A stretch of 22,853 nucleotides of DNA from a virus. How positions within the stretch are numbered: position 1 is the first letter of the stretch; each line of letters starts with the position of its first letter. The translations under genes were made by a program, and so were the position numbers. Shown here in pieces: positions 190 to 20,480 of this stretch. Location of the stretch: the IMG/VR virus record IMGVR_UViG_3300030103_003163, positions 1 to 22,853 of that record; one strand, given 5' to 3'. Below the pieces are notes generated by a model. That model saw only the letters and a list, made by a program, of their open reading frames with translations. It ran no database searches and had not been told where the DNA came from.

Positions 190-1662
190 ATGGATTCACA
201 ACACCTAGAATTGCTCTCTGATAAGGAACTCAAGTTGCGTCTGCGACTTGCTCAATTAGAGAAGACTGAAAAGTGCCAAAATAATTTTTTGTCGTTTGTC
301 AGGCATGTCTGGCCCGAGTTCATTGCAGGGCGGCATCATAAAATTATTGCTGAAAAACTAGAGCGCGTTGCTAGGGGCGAACTCAAGCGTCTGATAATCA
401 ACATGGCACCGCGGCACACGAAGTCTGAGTTTGCGTCTTATCTTTTCCCTGCGTGGTTCATGGGCCGTAATCCGAGCAAGAAGATCATTCAGGCGACGCA
501 CACGACAGAGCTTGCTGTGAATTTTGGCCGTAAGACCAAGAACCTGATTGAGTCGGATGATTATCAGGATATTTTTTCAGAGGTTAAGTTGGCCGCTGAT
601 TCCAAGGCATCCGGCCGATGGGATACGAATAAGGGTGGTATGTACTATGCGGTGGGTGTGGGCTCGAACCTCGCGGGCCGCGGTGGTGATTTGATTATTA
701 TTGACGACCCGCATTCGGAGCAGACGGCGATGTCGAACTCTGGATTTGATGACGCGTGGGACTGGTATACTGGTGGACCTCGTCAGCGTTTACAGCCCGG
801 AGGCAGTATTGTTCTGGTTCAGACCCGGTGGTCTGAAAAGGATATGACGGGTCAGTTACTACGGGCGATGGCCAAGGATCCCCTTGCTGACCAGTGGGAG
901 ATTGTAGAGCTACCGGCTATTTTTAATTCTGGTGAAGAAGAGGAAGAGCCGTGCTGGCCTGAGTTCTGGTCTTTAGATGATTTGACAAGGGTCCGTGCAT
1001 CTATACCTGTCAGCAAGTGGAACGCTCAGTATCAGCAGAATCCGACGGGTGAAGAAAGCGCGATTATCAAGCGGGAATGGTGGAACGTTTGGCAGAAAGA
1101 AACCGTACCCCAATTACAGTTTGTGATTCAAAGCTATGATACGGCGTTTTCAAAGCGTGAGACGGCGGACTACTCGGCCATCACGACGTGGGGCGTCTTT
1201 TATCCCGAAGAAGGAGGAGCCCCAAACCTCATCTTACTCGACTCTAAAAAAGGACGATGGGACTTTCCAGAACTCAAAAACATAGCGTTTGAGGAGTATA
1301 ACTTTTGGGACCCCGACACCGTCATCGTGGAGGCTAAGGCATCTGGTATGCCGTTGACGCACGAAATGAGACAGACTGGGATTCCTGTGGTTAACTTCAC
1401 GCCTTCTAAGGGTAACGATAAAGTTTCGCGGGTACATGCTGTGACGCCTTTGTTTGAGGCGGGGATGGTTTGGGCCCCCGACGAACCTTGGGCCGAGGAA
1501 CTTGTTGAGGAGGTCGCGGCCTTTCCAAATGGTGAGCATGATGATTTGGTGGATTCCATGACGCAGGCGTTAATGCGTTATCGTCAGGGTAATTTTGTGC
1601 AGTTACCCACGGATGATTGGGAAGATACGGATCAATCTGCTAAAGTTGTTGCGTACTATTGA
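190..1662 (+). CDS. terL: Terminase large subunit (TerL)
   Basis: This is the packaging motor: an ATPase that pumps DNA into the prohead and a nuclease that cuts the concatemer. At 490 residues it has normal length. The ATPase half shows an atypical Walker A, APRHTKS (73-79), a Walker B LIIIDD (168-173) followed by PHSEQ, and the coupling stretch SIVLVQTRW (206-214). The nuclease half shows the expected acidic residues in SYDTAF (D317), EAKASG (E381) and HDDLVDS (D451/D452), an RNase H-like pattern. The ATG at 190 is the first start after an in-frame stop at 133-135. The next gene follows after 19 bases. Family and role are secure from the motifs; the packaging mode (cos, pac or direct terminal repeat) cannot be read. 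Confidence 0.96.
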   Translation: MDSQHLELLSDKELKLRLRLAQLEKTEKCQNNFLSFVRHVWPEFIAGRHHKIIAEKLERVARGELKRLIINMAPRHTKSEFASYLFPAWFMGRNPSKKIIQATHTTELAVNFGRKTKNLIESDDYQDIFSEVKLAADSKASGRWDTNKGGMYYAVGVGSNLAGRGGDLIIIDDPHSEQTAMSNSGFDDAWDWYTGGPRQRLQPGGSIVLVQTRWSEKDMTGQLLRAMAKDPLADQWEIVELPAIFNSGEEEEEPCWPEFWSLDDLTRVRASIPVSKWNAQYQQNPTGEESAIIKREWWNVWQKETVPQLQFVIQSYDTAFSKRETADYSAITTWGVFYPEEGGAPNLILLDSKKGRWDFPELKNIAFEEYNFWDPDTVIVEAKASGMPLTHEMRQTGIPVVNFTPSKGNDKVSRVHAVTPLFEAGMVWAPDEPWAEELVEEVAAFPNGEHDDLVDSMTQALMRYRQGNFVQLPTDDWEDTDQSAKVVAYY

Positions 1663-1681: not shown

Positions 1682-2764
1682 ATGGCCGATCCGGTTCGTA
1701 ATGCGGAAGAAAACCTTCAGCAGTATCTAAGACAGCAGATGTTAAGTCAGGCACGAGTTAGTAAAGCAGACGAGTTGCCCGATGCGATAGATTATCGTCG
1801 TCGTCAAACAGCAGAGGTTCTTGGAGATAGACAGGGCTTTCCCTTAGCAGATCAAGCCGCAAGAAACGTAATCGACAAAAACACTCAAGACATGCTCGAT
1901 TACTACAACTTTTTACAATATGAGCAAGACCCTAGCAACCTGTTAGAACGTCGTGCGATTGACGAAGCTGTGTATACCGGTAAAGTGCCTTTTGGTTACG
2001 AAGACTCTGAATTTTTATATCGTCAGGGTAGATACGGAATCAAAGGTGGAGCTTTAAACCCAGAAATAGCAGAACGACTGGGGATTCCTCGTGACATTCA
2101 AGTTGCCGGTGATTCGATAAAAGGTCAGACTCCCATTCACGAGGGTATGCACCCGATTATTAAACTTCCAAGAAAAGAAGAAGAAAACGCAATCAGGGCG
2201 TTAGATTATTTCCGTATGAAACGTTACGGCAATGCCGAGGAAGCGCAAGAGCTTCTTAAACAAGTTGGGGTTGACGTGACTCAGCCGCGTGGTTTGGGTA
2301 AAGCACGAGTACTGGCGTTGAAAGGCGCGATGTCCATGACCGACGATCAGTTTCAAAACTTATCGGATACCGATAAAGCAGAATTACAAGAATCGTTTGA
2401 CGCCTATAAAGAGGCTCCCGGATTGATATCCTCGGCCCTCGGATCATTAGTGGGAGAGAAGCCACAACCGGAGTTCGATAACATCATTATTACGCCGGAT
2501 AATGCCGAGGATATGTCAGAAGAGGACTTCAACGCTTTGTTAAAGGCCGCGCCTGCTTTTGCATACGAAAAAATCTTCTCCGATACTTCTGTGAAGCTTA
2601 CGGGTCCCCGTATGGTTGGCGAAGGCGAATCGGCGGTTCAAGCGTATGCGGAAGGCGGCATCGTATCTTTAAAAGACAAAGCAGTGAACATGACCCGCGG
2701 ACCACGGAGCAATGGTATTATGCAGTACGTTCCCTTTATAACTGGAGCAACGAATGGCTATTGA
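1682..2764 (+). CDS. Unknown protein with HExxH motif, between terminase and portal
   Basis: A 360-residue protein that I cannot assign to a named family. The most specific feature is TPIHEGMHPII: HEGMH at residues 153-157 fits the HExxH zinc-binding signature of metallopeptidases. Many acidic residues follow (EEEN around 166-169) that could supply a third ligand, though none can be picked with certainty. The start is Gln/Arg-rich. The C-terminal 45 residues carry the YAEGGIVSL element that recurs in virion proteins of marine phages. There is no signal peptide or membrane segment. AGGAA about eight bases upstream serves the ATG. The end overlaps the portal gene by 11 bases, which suggests coupled translation. 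No classical prohead protease is present in the window, so a maturation or ejection-related protease is one hypothesis. Confidence 0.8.
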   Translation: MADPVRNAEENLQQYLRQQMLSQARVSKADELPDAIDYRRRQTAEVLGDRQGFPLADQAARNVIDKNTQDMLDYYNFLQYEQDPSNLLERRAIDEAVYTGKVPFGYEDSEFLYRQGRYGIKGGALNPEIAERLGIPRDIQVAGDSIKGQTPIHEGMHPIIKLPRKEEENAIRALDYFRMKRYGNAEEAQELLKQVGVDVTQPRGLGKARVLALKGAMSMTDDQFQNLSDTDKAELQESFDAYKEAPGLISSALGSLVGEKPQPEFDNIIITPDNAEDMSEEDFNALLKAAPAFAYEKIFSDTSVKLTGPRMVGEGESAVQAYAEGGIVSLKDKAVNMTRGPRSNGIMQYVPFITGATNGY

Positions 2765-5171
2765 GAAGAATAAAGTACCGTCTCAACTGGATGTTGAGGA
2801 TTTAGAAGCCGAGATTGAGATCGAGCTTCCCGATTCACAGAACAATGTACTTGCGATGATTCAGGCGGAGGACATTGGTGAGATTGAGATTTCTCCGACA
2901 GAGGACGGTGGCGTCGAGGTAGATTTTGAGCCTCAAGACGAGATGATGGAAGACGGTGGTTTTTACGCAAACCTTGCGGAGCAACTGCCTGATCGTGAGC
3001 TTGGCCGGATTGCTTCAGAGATCATGGAAGAGTTTGATGCCAATAAGGCGTCAAGGCAGGAGTGGGAAGACGCCTATGCAGACGGTTTGGAACTGCTGGG
3101 TTTTAACTATGAAGAGCGCACTCAGCCCTTCCGCGGTTCTTCTGGCGTAACGCATCCATTACTGGCCGAGGCGGCCACACAATTCCAAGCACAGGCATTC
3201 AATGAGCTACTTCCTGCTTCGGGACCCGTTCGCACAACCGTTATTGGGGATAATTCCAAGGACAAGGAAGCACAGGCACGGCGTGTTCGTCAGTTTATGA
3301 ACTATTACATCACCAATGTGATGGAAGATTACACGCCAGACATGGATCAAATGTTGTTTTATCTGCCGCTAGCGGGCTCAACCTTCAAAAAAGTCTATTT
3401 TGACGAGAGCATGGGCCGTGCAGTCAGCAAGTTTGTCCCTGCTGAGAACCTCGTGGTGCCTTATGAGACGGCAGATTTGGATACTTGTCCAAATATTACG
3501 CAAGTTGTACGGATGCCGTTGAATGATTTGCGTAAAAATCAGGTTTCAGGCTTCTATTTGGACGTTCCGGTGACTCCCGGAGAGGGAAAAAGCGATTCTG
3601 TTACCGAAGAAATACAGCGAATTGACGGTGTAACCCCTTCTCAGATTGATTATGACGCGACATTGCTTGAGTGCCACGTAGATTTGGACTTAGAAGGCTT
3701 TGAAGAGGTCGATAGCGAAGGAGAAATGACCGGGATCAAGATTCCGTACATCGTTACTATAAGTTATGACACCGGAGAGATCCTCGCGATTCGTAGAAAC
3801 TATGCCGAGGGCGACGAACTACGCAAAAAAATCCAATATTTTGTGCATTACAAGTTTTTACCGGGTTTTGCCTTTTACGGGCTCGGACTTATCCACACAA
3901 TCGGTGGTTTGTCTAGGACCGCGACCTCTGCACTGCGTCAGTTGATAGATGCGGGTACGTTATCGAACCTACCGGCAGGATTCAAAGCCCGCGGACTACG
4001 GATCAGGGACGATGATGATCCGTTACAGCCCGGAGAGTTCCGAGATGTGGACGCTCCCGGTGGTGCCATCCGCGATTCTTTGATGCCGTTGCCGTTTAAG
4101 GGCCCGGATGCAACCTTGTTTAACCTTTTAGGCTTTGTTGTGGAAGCCGGACAACGTTTTGCGACGATTACAGACCTCAAAGTTGGGGATGGCAATCAGG
4201 GAGCCGCTGTCGGCACGACAATCGCGATGCTGGAGCAAGGTTCCCGCGTCATGTCTGCTATTCACAAGCGGTTGCACTATGCAATGCGCTTAGAATTTAA
4301 GATTCTTGCTCGTGTGATGGGTGAAAGTCTGCCACAACAGTACCCGTACTCTGTCGAAGGTGAAGACGCCAGCATCATGGCAAGCGACTTTGATGAGCGT
4401 GTGGATGTAGTTCCAATATCGGATCCAAACGTATTCAGTCAGGCGCAACGGATTGTGATGGCGCAGACTAAACTTCAGTTAGCTGGAGCCGCGCCAGAGA
4501 TACATAATATGTATGAAGTCTATCGCGACATGTACGACGCGTTAGGTGTGAAAGACGTAGATCGGATCATGAAGGCACCCCCAGAGGATGAGATGGGGCC
4601 CACGGATCCTGCACAGGAGAATATAGATGCACTCGACATGGGTCAACTGCAAGCCTTCACGGGGCAAAATCATCAAGCGCATATTATCTCGCATCTGGTT
4701 TTTGGTTCAACGCCGATGGTTGCTGGTATGCCTGCTGTGGCGATGGCTCTTCAGAAACACATCATGGAACACGTTAAGCTATCTGCTCGGGAGCGGGCTA
4801 CGGCTGAGTTTGAGCAGATTACCGCGCAACAAGGACCTGCGGCAAATCCGGAACAACGGATGATAGAGTACGAGGGTTTAGTGGCTCAATACATTGCACA
4901 GGGAATGCAAGAAGTTAAAGACCTATCTCAGCAAATATCAGGACAAGGTCCAGATCCGGTGGTGCAACTGAAGCAACAGGAGTTGCAGTTGGACGCGCAG
5001 GAAGCCGAGCGAGATGCTCAGTTGGATGCGGCCAAGCTACAGTTGGATCAGCAGACCTTGCAGATGCGTGATCGTCAGTTCTATGATCGTTTGCAGGCGC
5101 AGGCGGCTCAGACAAGGGCTCGTATTGATGCAGGTCGAGAACGTGAATTACTCAAGCAGAGAGGAAATTAA
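2754..5171 (+). CDS. Portal protein (P22-like)
   Basis: An 805-residue portal, the dodecameric ring at the single head vertex through which TerL threads DNA and on which the tail is built. Its length and the order of segments fit the P22-type portals. The acidic N-terminus (about 1-68) is followed by a core with LLGFNYEERTQPFRGSSGV, FNELLPASGPVRT, LPLAGSTFKKVYFDE and FVPAENLVVPYET, segments typical of portals of marine podoviruses. The last 110 or so residues are rich in Gln, Ala, Asp and Arg and look like a long coiled-coil helix, comparable to the P22 portal barrel. The start at 2754 lies inside the end of the previous gene. The small downstream gene begins two bases after the stop. Confidence 0.93.
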   Translation: MAIEKNKVPSQLDVEDLEAEIEIELPDSQNNVLAMIQAEDIGEIEISPTEDGGVEVDFEPQDEMMEDGGFYANLAEQLPDRELGRIASEIMEEFDANKASRQEWEDAYADGLELLGFNYEERTQPFRGSSGVTHPLLAEAATQFQAQAFNELLPASGPVRTTVIGDNSKDKEAQARRVRQFMNYYITNVMEDYTPDMDQMLFYLPLAGSTFKKVYFDESMGRAVSKFVPAENLVVPYETADLDTCPNITQVVRMPLNDLRKNQVSGFYLDVPVTPGEGKSDSVTEEIQRIDGVTPSQIDYDATLLECHVDLDLEGFEEVDSEGEMTGIKIPYIVTISYDTGEILAIRRNYAEGDELRKKIQYFVHYKFLPGFAFYGLGLIHTIGGLSRTATSALRQLIDAGTLSNLPAGFKARGLRIRDDDDPLQPGEFRDVDAPGGAIRDSLMPLPFKGPDATLFNLLGFVVEAGQRFATITDLKVGDGNQGAAVGTTIAMLEQGSRVMSAIHKRLHYAMRLEFKILARVMGESLPQQYPYSVEGEDASIMASDFDERVDVVPISDPNVFSQAQRIVMAQTKLQLAGAAPEIHNMYEVYRDMYDALGVKDVDRIMKAPPEDEMGPTDPAQENIDALDMGQLQAFTGQNHQAHIISHLVFGSTPMVAGMPAVAMALQKHIMEHVKLSARERATAEFEQITAQQGPAANPEQRMIEYEGLVAQYIAQGMQEVKDLSQQISGQGPDPVVQLKQQELQLDAQEAERDAQLDAAKLQLDQQTLQMRDRQFYDRLQAQAAQTRARIDAGRERELLKQRGN

Positions 5172-5172
5172 A

Positions 5173-5370
5173 ATGTCCAGAGTAAAGATTGTTACAAACA
5201 CACCCGGTGCGGGTCCAACTCCTCAAAATTATGCAGACATAAAGGGTCAGGGTAAGATTCCTTATGCCAGCGATAAGGAGCTACCAGAGGCTCCAATGAA
5301 CGTGCCAGATGGAGTAGCTCGTGGTATGGGCGCGGCTAAACGTGGCGGGAACTACAAAGGCATTACGTAA
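5173..5370 (+). CDS. Small conserved phage protein, 65 residues
   Basis: The ATG at 5173 is preceded by AGAGGAAA, a good ribosome binding site; the frame is open further upstream inside the portal gene, but that longer form has no justification. The product begins MSRVKIVTNTPGAGP, is rich in Gly, Pro and Lys, and ends RGGNYKGIT. It has no membrane segment and no catalytic motif. Its position right behind the portal, and its style, resemble small virion-associated proteins of uncultured marine phages. The function is unknown. Its stop TAA shares one base with the ATG of the next gene. Confidence 0.75.
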   Translation: MSRVKIVTNTPGAGPTPQNYADIKGQGKIPYASDKELPEAPMNVPDGVARGMGAAKRGGNYKGIT

Positions 5371-5498
5371 TGCCTTTAAAAAAAGAGTCTAGTACAGACA
5401 AGAAGCCTCAAAAGCCGCTAATGAAGGCGGCGAAGGGGGGCTTTGTTAAAAGATTTAGTAAGATAGCTAGACCGCAGAGGTTTAGGGGAATCTTCTAA
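5370..5498 (+). CDS. Basic miniprotein, 42 residues
   Basis: A short frame that fits exactly between its neighbours: its ATG (5370-5372) overlaps the previous stop as TAATG, and its own TAA (5496-5498) overlaps the next ATG in the same way. The product is MPLKKESSTDKKPQKPLMKA at the start and ARPQRFRGIF at the end, with many Lys and Arg. The exact TAATG coupling on both sides is the main evidence that it is a gene. No family is recognised; RNA, DNA or membrane-surface binding is conceivable from its charge only. Confidence 0.65.
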   Translation: MPLKKESSTDKKPQKPLMKAAKGGFVKRFSKIARPQRFRGIF

Positions 5499-6663: not shown

Positions 6664-7059
6664 ATGATACAAGCACTTATCGGTCCAGTAACAGGACTGC
6701 TAGACAAGTTTATTGAAGACAAGGATCAAAAAAATGCTTTGGCCCACGAAATTTCAACAATGGCTGAAAAACACGCGCACGAAGCCGCAATGCAACAAAT
6801 CCTTGTCAACAGAGAAGAAGCAAAACATAAATCAATCTTCGTCGCAGGATGGCGACCCTTCATTGGATGGACCTGCGGAGTCGCGTTGGCATATCACTTC
6901 GTGCTTGCTCCACTCATTATTTTTGGAATTACGTGGTATGGGTCACCGGTACCTGAAATCCCTACGTTCGATATGGACTCGTTGATGACTGTCCTTCTTG
7001 GTATGCTCGGGCTCGGTGGGCTTCGTACCTATGAAAAGAAACAAGGACTTACGAAATGA
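6664..7059 (+). CDS. Holin (3-TM, gene-transfer-agent type)
   Basis: A 131-residue membrane protein with the features of the holin 3-TM family first known from the Rhodobacter gene transfer agent. There is an amphipathic N-terminal helix (IGPVTGLLDKFIEDKD), a basic linker, then the family hallmark GWRPFIGW (62-69) leading into a hydrophobic segment to about 91. A second segment, MTVLLGMLGLGGLRTYEK, lies at about 108-125. Holins form lesions in the inner membrane at a set time so that the endolysin reaches peptidoglycan. The lysozyme gene follows directly with an ATGA overlap, the usual lysis-cassette order. Confidence in the family is high; lesion size and timing cannot be judged. Confidence 0.9.
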   Translation: MIQALIGPVTGLLDKFIEDKDQKNALAHEISTMAEKHAHEAAMQQILVNREEAKHKSIFVAGWRPFIGWTCGVALAYHFVLAPLIIFGITWYGSPVPEIPTFDMDSLMTVLLGMLGLGGLRTYEKKQGLTK

Positions 7060-7499
7060 ATACAGAACAATTAAGAATAGAATTGGAGAGCGATGAGGGT
7101 TGCATACACGAGGTGTATTTGGATCATCTTGGGTATCCGACTTTCGGCATAGGCCATCTAATACGCGATACCGACCCAGAGTACGGTTGTGATGTTGGTG
7201 AAAAAATTAACGAAGAGAGAGTTGCAGAGGCGTTTGAAGACGATGTTCAAATCACTTATAACGACTGCTTGCGGCTGTATCCAGACTTTGACATGTTGCC
7301 TGACGAGGTTCAATTAATCATCGCTAATATGATGTTTAACCTCGGCGCAACCAGAATGGGTAAGTTCGTCGGCATGAAATCCGGTGTTGATGCCCGAGAC
7401 TGGCAAAAAGCCGCAGACGAAATGGTAGACAGTTTGTGGTATAAACAGGTCACCAACCGCGCGAATCGGTTAGTAAACCGCATGAGAGCAGTAGTTTAG
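7056..7499 (+). CDS. Endolysin, T4-type lysozyme (GH24 muramidase)
   Basis: A 147-residue peptidoglycan hydrolase that cleaves the MurNAc-GlcNAc bond. The catalytic triad spacing of T4 lysozyme (E11, D20, T26) is conserved as E14 in SDEGC, D23 in VYLDH and T29 in GYPTFGIGHL, with the same distances of nine and six. The lower lobe contains the family segment LIIANMMFNLG, and the end NRANRLVNRMRAVV matches the usual C-terminus. There is no signal peptide or signal-arrest-release segment, so export depends on the holin. Start overlaps the holin stop (ATGA). It ends the first gene block of the window; a 65-base gap follows. Confidence 0.94.
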   Translation: MNTEQLRIELESDEGCIHEVYLDHLGYPTFGIGHLIRDTDPEYGCDVGEKINEERVAEAFEDDVQITYNDCLRLYPDFDMLPDEVQLIIANMMFNLGATRMGKFVGMKSGVDARDWQKAADEMVDSLWYKQVTNRANRLVNRMRAVV

Positions 7500-7564: not shown

Positions 7565-7762
7565 ATGAGTGATATATACTTGTCCGAAGCTGTATTTCGG
7601 ATTATCCGGGATCAGCGGACGGCCATTGTAGACTGCCTGCAATATAACGGCGTGAAAACAATGGAACATTACCGTGAAATGATGGGCATGATGACTGCCC
7701 TCGATCACGTCGAACAGGAACTCAAGGGCCTGCTAGATAAACAGGAGCAAATAGATGACTGA
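7565..7762 (+). CDS. Small helical protein upstream of the GroES gene
   Basis: A 65-residue protein, mostly helical by composition, with a charged Glu/Lys-rich end (HVEQELKGLLDKQEQIDD). It has one Cys, no hydrophobic segment and no known catalytic motif. Similar short proteins stand directly before the GroES-like gene in other marine phages as far as I recall, but with no assigned function. The upstream ribosome site is weak (GATAAGATA), and the repeat at 7505-7557 ends eight bases before the start. It overlaps the chaperonin gene by eight bases, so both are probably translated together. A role in head folding or assembly is a guess from context. Confidence 0.75.
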   Translation: MSDIYLSEAVFRIIRDQRTAIVDCLQYNGVKTMEHYREMMGMMTALDHVEQELKGLLDKQEQIDD

Positions 7763-8174
7763 AGAAGTCTCAACGCTAGAAGAAGCATATACGGAGGAAC
7801 GTAAAACGTTTCTTGATCCCGAGGCAATTGGGGCAACTCTCTTAGAAAGACTCCCAACTCCAACTGGTTGGCGAATACTAATCCTGCCATATAGTGGTAA
7901 AGGAAAGACAGAAGGTGGAATTCTTCTGGCTGACAAAACCATAGAGAAACAGCAGGTTTCTACTCAAGTTGGCTATGTTCTTAAAGTAGGAGCATTAGCA
8001 TACAAAGATACCGATAAGTTTCCGGATGGAGCGTGGTGCCAAGAGAAGGATTGGGTAATGTTTGCCCGATACTCTGGCTCTCGTTTCAACATCGACGGGG
8101 GCGAAGTTCGGATTCTTAACGACGATGAAATTCTGGCTCGAATTCTCGATCCGGCAGACGTTTTACATTTCTAA
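7755..8174 (+). CDS. GroES-like co-chaperonin
   Basis: A 139-residue Cpn10 protein with an N-terminal extension of about 33 residues before the core. The core begins PTPTGWRILILP and shows the mobile loop with GGILL (54-58), matching the GGIVL of GroES that docks on GroEL. It is followed by GYVLKVG and WVMFARYSGSRFNIDGGE, then the C-terminal strand EVRILNDDEILARI. Phage co-chaperonins such as T4 gp31 replace or modify host GroES so that the bulky capsid protein fits the folding chamber. The scaffold and major capsid genes lie directly downstream, consistent with that job. No GroEL partner is encoded here, so the host GroEL would be used. An ATG-proximal overlap couples it to the previous gene. 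Confidence 0.88.
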   Translation: MTEEVSTLEEAYTEERKTFLDPEAIGATLLERLPTPTGWRILILPYSGKGKTEGGILLADKTIEKQQVSTQVGYVLKVGALAYKDTDKFPDGAWCQEKDWVMFARYSGSRFNIDGGEVRILNDDEILARILDPADVLHF

Positions 8175-16767: not shown

Positions 16768-17214
16768 ATGGCATTTAGCGGAAACTTCATGTGTACCTCG
16801 TTTAAAGGCGAGCTTATGGAGGGCACTCACAATTTTAAGTCTAGCGGCGGTAATACTTTTAAATTAGCTCTGTACAGCAATAGTGCTAGTTTTACGGCGG
16901 CAACTACTGGTTACACAACTTCAAACGAGGTTAGTAATTCAGGGTCGTATGCCGCGGGCGGAGGTGCTTTAACGAATTCTGGTGTTACAACATCGTCAAC
17001 TAAAGCTTTCACTGACTTCGCTGATTTGTCTTTTACTACGGCAACGATCACTGCTAGAGGTGCTTTGATTTATAATGACAGCGCGACCGGAGATCCGGCA
17101 GTTGTTGTTTTAGATTTCACTGCGGATAAGACGTCAACAGCAGGTACATTTACAATCGTCTTTCCGGGCGGGTCTAGTCCTACTTCATCGAACGCGATTA
17201 TTAGGGTCGAGTAA
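16768..17214 (+). CDS. Beta-rich structural protein, 148 residues
   Basis: Begins MAFSGNFMCTSFKGELMEGT and contains FKLALYSNSASFTAATTGYT, GSYAAGGGALTNSGVTT and RGALIYNDSATGDPAVVVLD. The all-beta, Thr/Ser/Gly-rich pattern and these segments are familiar from a conserved structural protein of marine phages encoded just before the large fibre genes. The fold is probably an immunoglobulin-like or jelly-roll domain. AGGAG precedes the ATG at 16768. The final TAA shares a base with the next ATG. A tail or head-fibre subunit is likely; the precise place in the virion is unknown. Confidence 0.72.
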   Translation: MAFSGNFMCTSFKGELMEGTHNFKSSGGNTFKLALYSNSASFTAATTGYTTSNEVSNSGSYAAGGGALTNSGVTTSSTKAFTDFADLSFTTATITARGALIYNDSATGDPAVVVLDFTADKTSTAGTFTIVFPGGSSPTSSNAIIRVE

Positions 17215-20200
17215 TGTCCAGTCCCGCTAGCGGCTGGGGCCGTGCGGGATGGGGTCAACTTGCATGGGGAGAGGGCGAAGCTGACGCTGTCGTTCCTTTT
17301 TCCGGTTGGGGTCGAGCGGGTTTTGGTGAGCTTGGCTGGAATCAAGGTGATGTAGCTGTTGCTACGGCAACAGGTCAAGTTGGTTCAGTATCCGTTTCAA
17401 TAGGAGCTTCAGTCTCCGCTACTGGTCTTTCTGCATCTGGTGATGTTGGATCAGGTACGGCATCTGGTGATTCAAATACCACTGAAACAGGTGTAGCCGC
17501 ATCTGGTAATGTTGGGGCCGTTACTATAACGGGAGCGTCTAGCGTTACTGAGACGGGTTTAGCCGCGTCGGGTAATGTTGGATCTGTCACCGTTACAGCA
17601 GATGTCACTGTTACAGCACAAGCTCTTTACGCTAGAGGTAACCCTGATCTAGGCGGTGCTCTCAACGCTGAGTACTTTGTTCCTACGGACTCAGGCAACC
17701 CAAATGTCAAGGTCATGGCATTTGAAGACAGCACCACTGTTTCTTCTGATGGGTCTTCTCTTGGAACAATCAGTTCGGCTGGCGGGACACTTACTGTCAG
17801 TGCGTCAGACTATAAAAACAAACTGATATCTGCTGACAAGCCAATCACACTACAGAGTAGCAACAACGAAACTACTGGTGTGCCTACATCGTGGCAAGGT
17901 ACTTCGTTTGGTATTAGAAATACCAGAACAGGTGTCAGGCTACAATTCAGATCCATATCCGGCACCGCAACAGTTGAAATATTTAAGGACGGGTCATTAG
18001 AGACAACACTCAGTGTCCCAGACAACACCACAACTACACAAACCTACGCAGACGACACAAGCGACCCTGAATATCAAATCTTTTCAGACCTGCCGATTGT
18101 TGGCTTCAAATCTAGTAACGCTAGTTTTGCAGACACACATCCTCTATTTCCTGCAAGCCGAGAAATCTACGGCTTTGCCTCAAGCGGTGGAACGGTCGTT
18201 AAAGTTGAAGACTATGGATCGTCAGCTAGTTACGTGGAGTTTAGGTCGAATGGTGAAGGCGGCACATCCAGTACAATAAGCACATTTAAGAACACTGGAG
18301 GTAGTGCCTCAGACTATACAGGGCCGTCCGTTCGGGTAGTTACTGGAGCGGATGTAGCTGGTTTTGCATTAGCCGATGGTGACGGTGGAGAAAAGACAAG
18401 CTGGATAGCCGAAGGATGTTTTGCTCACGAGTTTAGGTTAATTGAGGATGCAGAGTTCCTCGCCATCATGGGTGCGCCGGGGACTAAAGGTCGTAATATT
18501 AACGTCTTTGACTCAAGCGGTAACTTAATTGACACGGTTCAACTTGATGCAGATACGACAGATGCAGATTTTCCGACTAAGTTTCAATTAGTTTCTAACT
18601 CTACAACAGACTCTAACCTCACACCGATTGCGAAATCCTACGATTTGACCGCTGGTATGCGGATCGTATCCGAAGTTCCTGTCGGAGTTATTGTTGAAGA
18701 CGACAGTGGTGACAATGAAGAAAACCTTTTTGGACTGAGAACTTTTCCCGGTTTAGTCAATGCAGATGCCAATGTAACGGTTAGTGCCGTCTCTGCCACA
18801 GGTAAGGTTGGTTCAGTTACTCCTTCTGGTAATTCAAGTGTTATAGGTACAGGAGTTGCCGCATCAGGAGATGTTGGAACGGTAACAGTTACAGCCGACT
18901 CTAATGTTATAGGCACAGGAGTTGCCGCATCAGGAGATGTTGGAACGGTAACAGTTACAGCCGACTCTAATGTCACAGGTACAGGAGTTGCCGCATCAGG
19001 AGATGTCGGCTCAGTTACCGTAACCGGCACCGGCACTGTCACAGAAACAGGCTTAAAAGCTACCGGGGAGATTGGCACTGTCACTGTTACCGGAGACAGT
19101 AACTTATCGCTTACCGGTTTAAACGCGACGGGACAAGTTGGAACCGCCGTAGGTAAGGCTGACATTTCAATCACCGTAGGAAGCCTATCTGCTACAGGAG
19201 ACGTAGGTTCCGTTATCGTAGAACTTGCTGGAAGCGTAGAAGTTTCTGTTACGGGTCAGTCGGCTACTGGTCAAGTAGGAACCGGCACTACGGTTACAGC
19301 GGATTCCAACGTTACAGAGACTGGATTAGCCGCATCTGGACAGGTAGGCGCTGGATTTACAGTAACGGGTAATTCTAGTGTTACTGGAACAGGTCAGTCA
19401 GCCACCGGTCAAGTTGACGGCGGTTCTACTGTTGTCATTGATTCAAGCATCACAGAAACAGGCTTAAAAGCTACCGGTCAAGTTGGCAACGGTTTTTCTG
19501 TAACAGGTGATTCTAATCTTACTCTTGGCAGTTTAGCCGCCGCAGGACAACCCGGCGCGGTTACAGTTGATTTAATTCAACCAGTGGATGTAACCGGTGT
19601 TGCCGCTACAGGAGCCGTTGGAACAGCAACCGCTGTTGGTGTCGCAGAAGTAGATGTAACCGGTGTTGCCGCATCGGGTAATGTTGGCACAGCGACAGTT
19701 ACTGCGGGCGCAAATGTTCCAGAGACAGGTTTAAAGGCTACAGGTAACGTAGGCACAGCAACCGCTATCGCAGACATTGATATTTCTGTTACAGGCGTTA
19801 GCGCATCGGGCGATGTTGGCACAGTGACAATAACTGCTGACGCAAATGTTTCCGAAGAAGGGTTGTCTGCATCAGGTGCAGTTGGAAGTCCTACAATAAC
19901 GGGTACTTCTAACGTTTCTATCACAGGTGTATCGGCATCCGGAAATGTCGGCACGATAACCACTACAGCAGATGCTAACGTTTCTGTTACCGGTGTAGCG
20001 GCTACAGGACAACTCGGTTCTGTTACTGTTGAGCTTTTACTTGAAGTAGATGTTACAGGTGTAGCGGCCACAGGAGACGTTGGCACCGCAACAGTTACCG
20101 GCGACAGTAACACAACTGTCACAGGCGTGGCCGCTAGCGGACAAGTTGGTTCTGTTACCGTTGATTTAGTTCAATCAGTAGCTATCACGGGTGTGGCCGC

Positions 20201-20480
20201 TAACGGACAAGTTGGTTCAGTTACCACCACGGCTGAATCAACTGTCACTTTAATTGGTGTAAGTGCTAGTGGTGCTGTAGGCGAACTTTTCTTATGGGGA
20301 GAGATTATCCCTGACCAAAACGCATCTTGGAGTGAGATATCTAGCGGTGCAAGTACCAGCTATAGCCAGATTACGCCATCTCCGGGTAATACGTGGAGTA
20401 ACATTGTTCCTAGTGAACAAACAACTTATACTGAAGAGACACCTAGTCCCGGTACTAATTGGGATGATGTAGCGGCTTAG
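17214..20480 (+). CDS. Giant repeat-built tail fibre/adhesin-like protein, 1088 residues
   Basis: The domains in order are as follows. Two Gly/Trp-rich copies, SGWGRAGWGQLAWGEG and SGWGRAGFGELGWNQG (6-46). About four 22-residue repeats (51-135). An inserted domain (about 145-517) with no repeats, containing MAFEDSTTVSSDGSSLGTIS, PTSWQGTSFGI, GFKSSNASFADTHPLFPASR and AIMGAPGTKGRNINVFDSSG. Then about 23 repeats (521-1023), and finally a tail with an 11-residue period marked by W or Y (WSEISSGASTS, YSQITPSPGNT, WSNIVPSEQTT). The repeat consensus is roughly V-T-x-T-G-V-x-A-[ST]-G-x-V-G-[ST]-V-T-V-T-x-D-[SA]-N, expected to make a long beta solenoid or stalk. No cleavage or signal motif is seen. 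The role in host contact is inferred from architecture and from the fibre genes that follow. Confidence 0.85.
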   Translation: MSSPASGWGRAGWGQLAWGEGEADAVVPFSGWGRAGFGELGWNQGDVAVATATGQVGSVSVSIGASVSATGLSASGDVGSGTASGDSNTTETGVAASGNVGAVTITGASSVTETGLAASGNVGSVTVTADVTVTAQALYARGNPDLGGALNAEYFVPTDSGNPNVKVMAFEDSTTVSSDGSSLGTISSAGGTLTVSASDYKNKLISADKPITLQSSNNETTGVPTSWQGTSFGIRNTRTGVRLQFRSISGTATVEIFKDGSLETTLSVPDNTTTTQTYADDTSDPEYQIFSDLPIVGFKSSNASFADTHPLFPASREIYGFASSGGTVVKVEDYGSSASYVEFRSNGEGGTSSTISTFKNTGGSASDYTGPSVRVVTGADVAGFALADGDGGEKTSWIAEGCFAHEFRLIEDAEFLAIMGAPGTKGRNINVFDSSGNLIDTVQLDADTTDADFPTKFQLVSNSTTDSNLTPIAKSYDLTAGMRIVSEVPVGVIVEDDSGDNEENLFGLRTFPGLVNADANVTVSAVSATGKVGSVTPSGNSSVIGTGVAASGDVGTVTVTADSNVIGTGVAASGDVGTVTVTADSNVTGTGVAASGDVGSVTVTGTGTVTETGLKATGEIGTVTVTGDSNLSLTGLNATGQVGTAVGKADISITVGSLSATGDVGSVIVELAGSVEVSVTGQSATGQVGTGTTVTADSNVTETGLAASGQVGAGFTVTGNSSVTGTGQSATGQVDGGSTVVIDSSITETGLKATGQVGNGFSVTGDSNLTLGSLAAAGQPGAVTVDLIQPVDVTGVAATGAVGTATAVGVAEVDVTGVAASGNVGTATVTAGANVPETGLKATGNVGTATAIADIDISVTGVSASGDVGTVTITADANVSEEGLSASGAVGSPTITGTSNVSITGVSASGNVGTITTTADANVSVTGVAATGQLGSVTVELLLEVDVTGVAATGDVGTATVTGDSNTTVTGVAASGQVGSVTVDLVQSVAITGVAANGQVGSVTTTAESTVTLIGVSASGAVGELFLWGEIIPDQNASWSEISSGASTSYSQITPSPGNTWSNIVPSEQTTYTEETPSPGTNWDDVAA
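17364..17633 (+). repeat. N-terminal 66-bp coding repeats (about four copies)
   Basis: Four 22-codon units, for example GLSASGDVGS and GVAASGNVGA cores, with the last decaying into ALYARGNPDLGG where the inserted domain begins. They are the same family as the larger array downstream, so the inserted domain splits one repeat family into two blocks. Confidence 0.85.
18774..20282 (+). repeat. Large 66-bp coding repeat array (about 23 copies)
   Basis: Each unit encodes about 22 residues with the core [VL]-x-A-[ST]-G-x-V-G; a few units have 23 or 24 residues. Units at 18840-18905 and 18906-18971 differ by a single base (GGT against GGC), and the next at 18972-19037 shares most of its sequence, evidence of very recent duplication. 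Most other units are diverged at DNA level. Long open frames on the minus strand across the array are by-products of its periodicity. Confidence 0.93.

Follow-up and report, generated by a model that had tools for sequence, protein, structure and literature searches.

The locus analysed here raises the question of what is encoded between the terminase and portal genes of a phage, where an open reading frame (ORF) containing a HExxH motif is found. This ORF codes for 360 aa at positions 1682-2764 of the plus strand of the window (the term indicates the whole stretch of 22,853 nucleotides), and starts 19 nt past the TerL stop. A previous inspection (the sequence-only reading) had pointed out an HEGMH motif, which spans residues 153-157 and reads TPIHEGMHPII with its neighbours, and had noted that the gene overlaps the portal by 11 nt: both were confirmed, the portal ORF extending from 2754 to 5171. 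The protein is found in the context of portal-terminase phages. The TerL-portal interval will be referred to as the slot, and its features are the following.

190..1662, plus strand: TerL, upstream border of the slot (phrog_38, E 4e-108; Pfam Terminase_6C)
1682..2764, plus strand: slot (putative cargo) protein, 360 aa, N-terminal Z domain and C-terminal tail (ORF; same-position homologues in about 16 viral contigs)
1682..2647, plus strand: Z domain, residues 1-322, lineage-specific, candidate zincin-like metallopeptidase (alignments of 10-11 homologues; no family match)
2138..2152, plus strand: HEGMH motif, residues 153-157 (H, E, G and H invariant in the 10 sequences reaching the motif)
2180..2206, plus strand: EExxxRALD, residues 167-175, with E167 or E168 as candidate third zinc ligand (invariant in 11 sequences)
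2648..2761, plus strand: C-terminal tail, residues 323-360, AEGGIVSLKDKAVNMTRGPRSNGIMQYVPFITGATNGY (common to slot proteins without Z; homology resumes at 2647-2648 in L002, L034, L060 and L061; tail profile matches)
2754..2764, plus strand: overlap of slot and portal ORFs, 11 nt (ORF coordinates)
2754..5171, plus strand: portal protein, downstream border of the slot (phrog_1216, E 1e-54; Pfam SU10_portal)

Other features were observed elsewhere in the window. A phage-encoded GroES-like co-chaperonin is located at 7755-8174, 3' of the lysis genes, a feature also seen in phages of the HTVC023P type. A phage lysozyme is encoded at 7056-7499, and an M15-type peptidase seems, by eye, to be present in the counterpart region of L037 (5284-5844) and of L042, which suggests an exchange of the lysis enzyme. 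The ORF translation at 17214-20480, the only source for this region, is a 1088-aa protein in which degenerate copies of V-x-A-x-G-x-V-G-T/S-V-T follow one another many times (VAASGDVGTVTVTADSNVT and the like); it is probably a tail or fibre protein. A 226-aa ORF at 13411-14091 matches phrog_3704, labelled ferredoxin; a similar ferredoxin-like protein is seemingly located between slot tail and portal in L168.

An exchangeable slot

The slot was surveyed by anchoring on the portal, rather than on the tail, in the best 80 contigs. Occupied slots were 55, empty ones 17 and truncated ones 8, the empty slots corresponding to 17 of the 72 evaluable relatives. Slot proteins were grouped into 26 clusters at 40% identity, 10 of which contain HExxH, the number expected by shuffling being 0.09 (at most 2 over 2000 shuffles); in the control, the motif was found in none of 40 clusters of other ORFs from the same contigs. 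The slot is variable and dispensable, its cargo is exchanged, and HExxH is enriched in it.

The exchange is seen in L052: in the DNA of TerL and portal it shares about 93.6% identity with the window, and its cargo body is a different one, without HExxH; DNA homology with the window ends at 1658 and restarts at 2627. In L002, L034, L060 and L061, homology with the window restarts at 2647-2648, at the codon opening AEGG, and the alignment of the window-type protein with L060 and L061 is limited to the tail. In general, DNA breakpoints in relatives are found at or close to the tail boundary. A count of unrelated bodies by single linkage placed most segments in one component; since this grouping is uninformative, statements about different cargo are based on the direct comparisons.

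Homologues of Z were found in about 16 viral contigs; those checked belong to one phage lineage and occupy the TerL-portal position. They are mosaics, in which Z is followed by 0, 1 or more extra modules and then by the common C-terminal tail GGVVSLKDKAVNMTRGPRSNGIMQYVPFITGATNGY; L037 is a divergent homologue with a different tail. Among these forms that of the window is the shortest, with a single HExxH domain and a tail of about 38 residues. Disparate domains combined within one polypeptide are not seen in the window protein, while same-slot relatives have several domains. Pfam domains identified in the slot include ART-PolyVal (L163, L184), SLT transglycosylase (L196), LPD23 (L060) and DUF6884 (several), and PcfJ occupies the slot of phage DSL-LC04. 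Further HExxH modules, reading IMHEILHK, LAHELMHK and LTHELAHA, are found in a distant clade. By profile comparison, the L004/L011 module did not match ART-PolyVal, and a relationship of the L052 body to the same family is suggestive only. The TerL-portal slot probably holds cargo of the polyvalent type.

Within the more distant clade, DUF6884 often occurs as a module of the slot (slot proteins of L013-L028, L073 and L094), and it is also present in Burkholderia phages such as KS14.

The C-terminal tail

The tail of about 38 residues (AEGGIVSLKDKAVNM...) is shared among cargo: it recurs on otherwise different proteins, including slot proteins without Z. A profile built on the window-type tail matched the C-termini of other slot proteins, identifying the related tails GGVITLADVARNMNRGPRGV and GGVAGLSDIARDMFKGPKGI; the search covered 23,584 ORFs from the fetched loci, and the strong matches inspected are located 5' of the portal. 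Of the 69 tail-bearing proteins examined in the more distant clade, where portal identity is about 70%, 13 contain two tail-like copies, one internal and the other at or near the end, and many such pairs flank other HExxH modules. The 73 copies of a 13-residue tail core comprise 51 nucleotide variants, which translate into 11 peptides (pS 0.63, pN 0.095, figures biased by the collection of copies through an amino-acid pattern). In a co-evolution test, the Spearman correlation with portal similarity was 0.45 for the tail and 0.36 for the body; such a slight difference counts against the virion-cargo reading.

The tail could be devoid of a role at the protein level, and represent a recombination junction travelling with the start of the portal gene. 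The breaks of DNA homology at or near its boundary and, in the loci inspected, its location beside the portal gene are in line with this explanation, which is nevertheless rather unlikely, in view of the 51 nucleotide variants reduced to 11 peptides, with the collection bias mentioned above, of the varying distance from the portal and of the internal copies. Similarly, a mere effect of DNA overlap with the portal gene is unlikely, because tail-portal spacing varies from -38 to +22 and internal copies exist. The chances that the tail acts as a head-targeting signal are judged to be about even. A wider proposal may be advanced tentatively: the xGG[VI]xxLxDxAxxM tail might be a portable signal for virion loading, and perhaps processing, serving an exchangeable effector slot in which the lineage-specific metallopeptidase family would be one cargo, and internal copies would lie at borders between modules, where cleavage or docking takes place in assembly or injection.

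The putative xGG signal is not universal, because other slot proteins carry a different conserved tail. This second C-terminal tail, SPExGPD[VL]YFPR[DN]xxGYF, is found on many slot proteins of the portal-anchored survey, including those of L154, L155, L157, L164 and L166, and DUF6973 matches near the Pfam cut-off were obtained for some of them. Two small ORFs right after the portal (window 5143-5370 and 5370-5498) end with the C-terminal peptides ARGMGAAKRGGNYKGIT and AAKGGFVKRFSKIARPQRFRGIF, and numerous related contigs have both peptides again 3' of the portal. Homology between the slot tail and the KGGVV..FSxIARPQRFKGVF tails of small portal-proximal proteins was considered and rejected: only the GG entry (A-x-GG) aligns.

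The HExxH motif and the Z domain

A chance origin of the motif, a caveat of the sequence-only reading, is unlikely. The only two histidines of the window protein are both within HEGMH, and shuffling of its residues produces HExxH with P = 4e-4. Variation at H153, E154 or H157 among homologues had been indicated as the outcome that would speak against a zinc site, and none was found: H153, E154, G155 and H157 are invariant, as HEG[M/T/L]H, in all 10 aligned sequences covering the motif, and E167, E168, R172 and D175 in all 11 aligned Z homologues. About 80 further columns of the alignment are likewise invariant and the family is shallow, so that motif invariance by itself is moderate evidence. 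Together with the lack of other histidines and the recurrence of HExxH domains in the slot, it supports a functional HExxH.

The arrangement resembles that of gluzincin-type zincins, in which HExxH precedes a Glu; in the Z family an invariant Glu, the candidate third ligand, falls 10-11 positions past the second His, and L037 has a slightly longer spacing. Differences from zincin-like metallopeptidases are the unusual HEG[MTL]H[PN] sequence and the lack of detectable profile or structural similarity. In nearly all members a proline directly follows the second histidine; proline at this position is unusual within a zincin helix.

A profile and Foldseek check for a peptidase fold, suggested by the sequence-only reading, did not provide a metallopeptidase match. 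No match to the window slot protein was found in Pfam, PHROGs, NCBIfam or PDB sequences, and no Z relative among about 50,000 phage records, among cultured phages or, by Z profile, in GTDB genome contigs. The Z profile showed no similarity to known metallopeptidase families and did not match the profiles of other HExxH slot modules or the polyvalent-protein families, and no described polyvalent domain was recognized by Pfam in the window protein. Two AlphaFold models, built from shallow alignments of 7 and 11 sequences, were both of low confidence: pLDDT is 28-39 around the motif, and no helix passes through it. Foldseek, run with these low-confidence models, found no match in PDB or BFVD. Given the lack of family and PDB matches and the poor models, the metallopeptidase assignment is based on the motif and its context rather than on a fold.

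Z might instead be virion cargo or an internal head protein other than a metallopeptidase, with HEGxH as a conserved structural motif or one of another catalytic type. The lack of a peptidase profile match, the low-confidence model without a helix through the motif and the location of the most conserved stretch of the family at residues 75-112, away from the motif, point in this direction. This is a possible but doubtful explanation: the two histidines and the glutamate are invariant, the protein has no other histidines, and other HExxH proteins repeatedly occupy the same slot. Motif and context give the assignment of Z as a metallopeptidase roughly one chance in two.

Maturation, entry or delivery

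The statement that a classical prohead protease is lacking holds, for S78 and S49, on a contig of 56 kb that shares slot protein, TerL and portal with the window at 100% identity: neither family was found there. The window slot protein has no Pfam match to S78 or S49 either, and the search for S77 gave no response from any control genome. The lack of S78 and S49 on the 56-kb contig, the presence of HExxH and the position among head genes are compatible with a capsid maturation metallopeptidase, cleaving scaffold or capsid in head assembly. Against it, Z is missing from L052, despite closely similar flanking genes (the L052 contig is a 20.8-kb fragment), and was not found on contigs of genome-like length (56-68 kb) of the wider lineage. 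Since virus contigs may be fragments, absence from a single contig is weaker evidence than replacement in place. Retention throughout the lineage, as expected of an assembly function, is not observed for Z. Because Z is replaced in close relatives and not found on the 56-68 kb contigs, and the slot is often empty, maturation is unsupported; it was rejected on dispensability, and we regard it as very improbable. Of the two roles originally proposed, maturation or ejection, the latter fits the slot context and is plausible, while the former does not agree with domain replacement and with the 17 empty slots.

An ejected peptidoglycan or periplasmic peptidase, aiding DNA entry, was also taken into account. 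The SLT transglycosylase domain in the same slot of L196 agrees with this role, as do the wall-attacking domains included among those of polyvalent proteins (PMC5512222). An entry enzyme would however be expected to be kept, whereas Z is swapped out, and no similarity to known peptidoglycan peptidases was found; this alternative is quite improbable. The slot protein is more likely a delivered effector than a capsid-maturing protease, because related phages swap probable injected proteins in the slot, frequently with a metalloprotease signature, and many of them retain the short tail.

Comparison with known systems

According to Iyer et al. 2017 (PMC5512222), packaging and injection are presumed for the polyvalent proteins of portal-terminase phages, and their commonest domain is a zincin-like metallopeptidase. 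Portal-terminase context, mosaic multidomain relatives and the ART-PolyVal, LPD23, PcfJ and HExxH modules are points of similarity with the slot. Unlike them, the window protein consists of one domain and a tail, Z matches none of their families, and tail sharing at the C-terminus is no theme of the PMC5512222 passages considered here. The single domain, compared to at least two in polyvalent proteins, weakens the virion-cargo reading. As a whole, an effector slot combined with a portable tail at the C-terminus represents a variation on the known theme of polyvalent proteins.

In T4 IPIII and P1 DarB, a short N-terminal capsid-targeting sequence can take foreign proteins into the head (PMC9026906, PMC9024508). 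The slot tail is likewise a short element common to different proteins thought to enter the head, but it is C-terminal, sometimes also internal, and its function is putative. We know of no sequence relation between the slot tail and the T4 and P1 capsid-targeting sequences. Prohead maturation proteases (S78, S49, S77) share with the slot gene the position among head genes; in contrast to them, the slot protein is dispensable and exchangeable, and shows no sequence similarity to them. The best supported interpretation is a virion cargo gene, analogous to those encoding the internal proteins of T4 and the Dar proteins of P1.

Proposed function and implications

On balance, the slot ORF appears to be the minimal form of an exchangeable virion-cargo gene, composed of a probable zincin-like effector, Z, and a portable, likely head-recruiting tail; we hold this to be somewhat better than an even bet. 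The product would be packaged in the head and injected into the host. The approximately 320 N-terminal residues would probably act as a zincin-like metallopeptidase, using HEGxH and a Glu ligand from EExxxRALD; its substrate would be either a host protein, once injection has occurred, or the cargo itself. The C-terminal 38 residues or so would most likely recruit the cargo to the assembling head, through portal, scaffold or capsid.

Most informative are the C-terminal tail common to different slot proteins and the exchangeable nature of the slot, neither of which was part of the sequence-only reading. If the proposal is correct, it accounts for a metallopeptidase-like gene beside the portal that is no maturation protease, and it predicts a packaging tag and virion cargo. 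HTVC023P, HTVC027P and DSL-LC04, cultured relatives by portal, are suited to the cargo-slot question. Candidate injected effectors of this phage group would then be findable by position and by the portal-adjacent tail rather than by homology, a useful search because cargo bodies are mostly without annotation.
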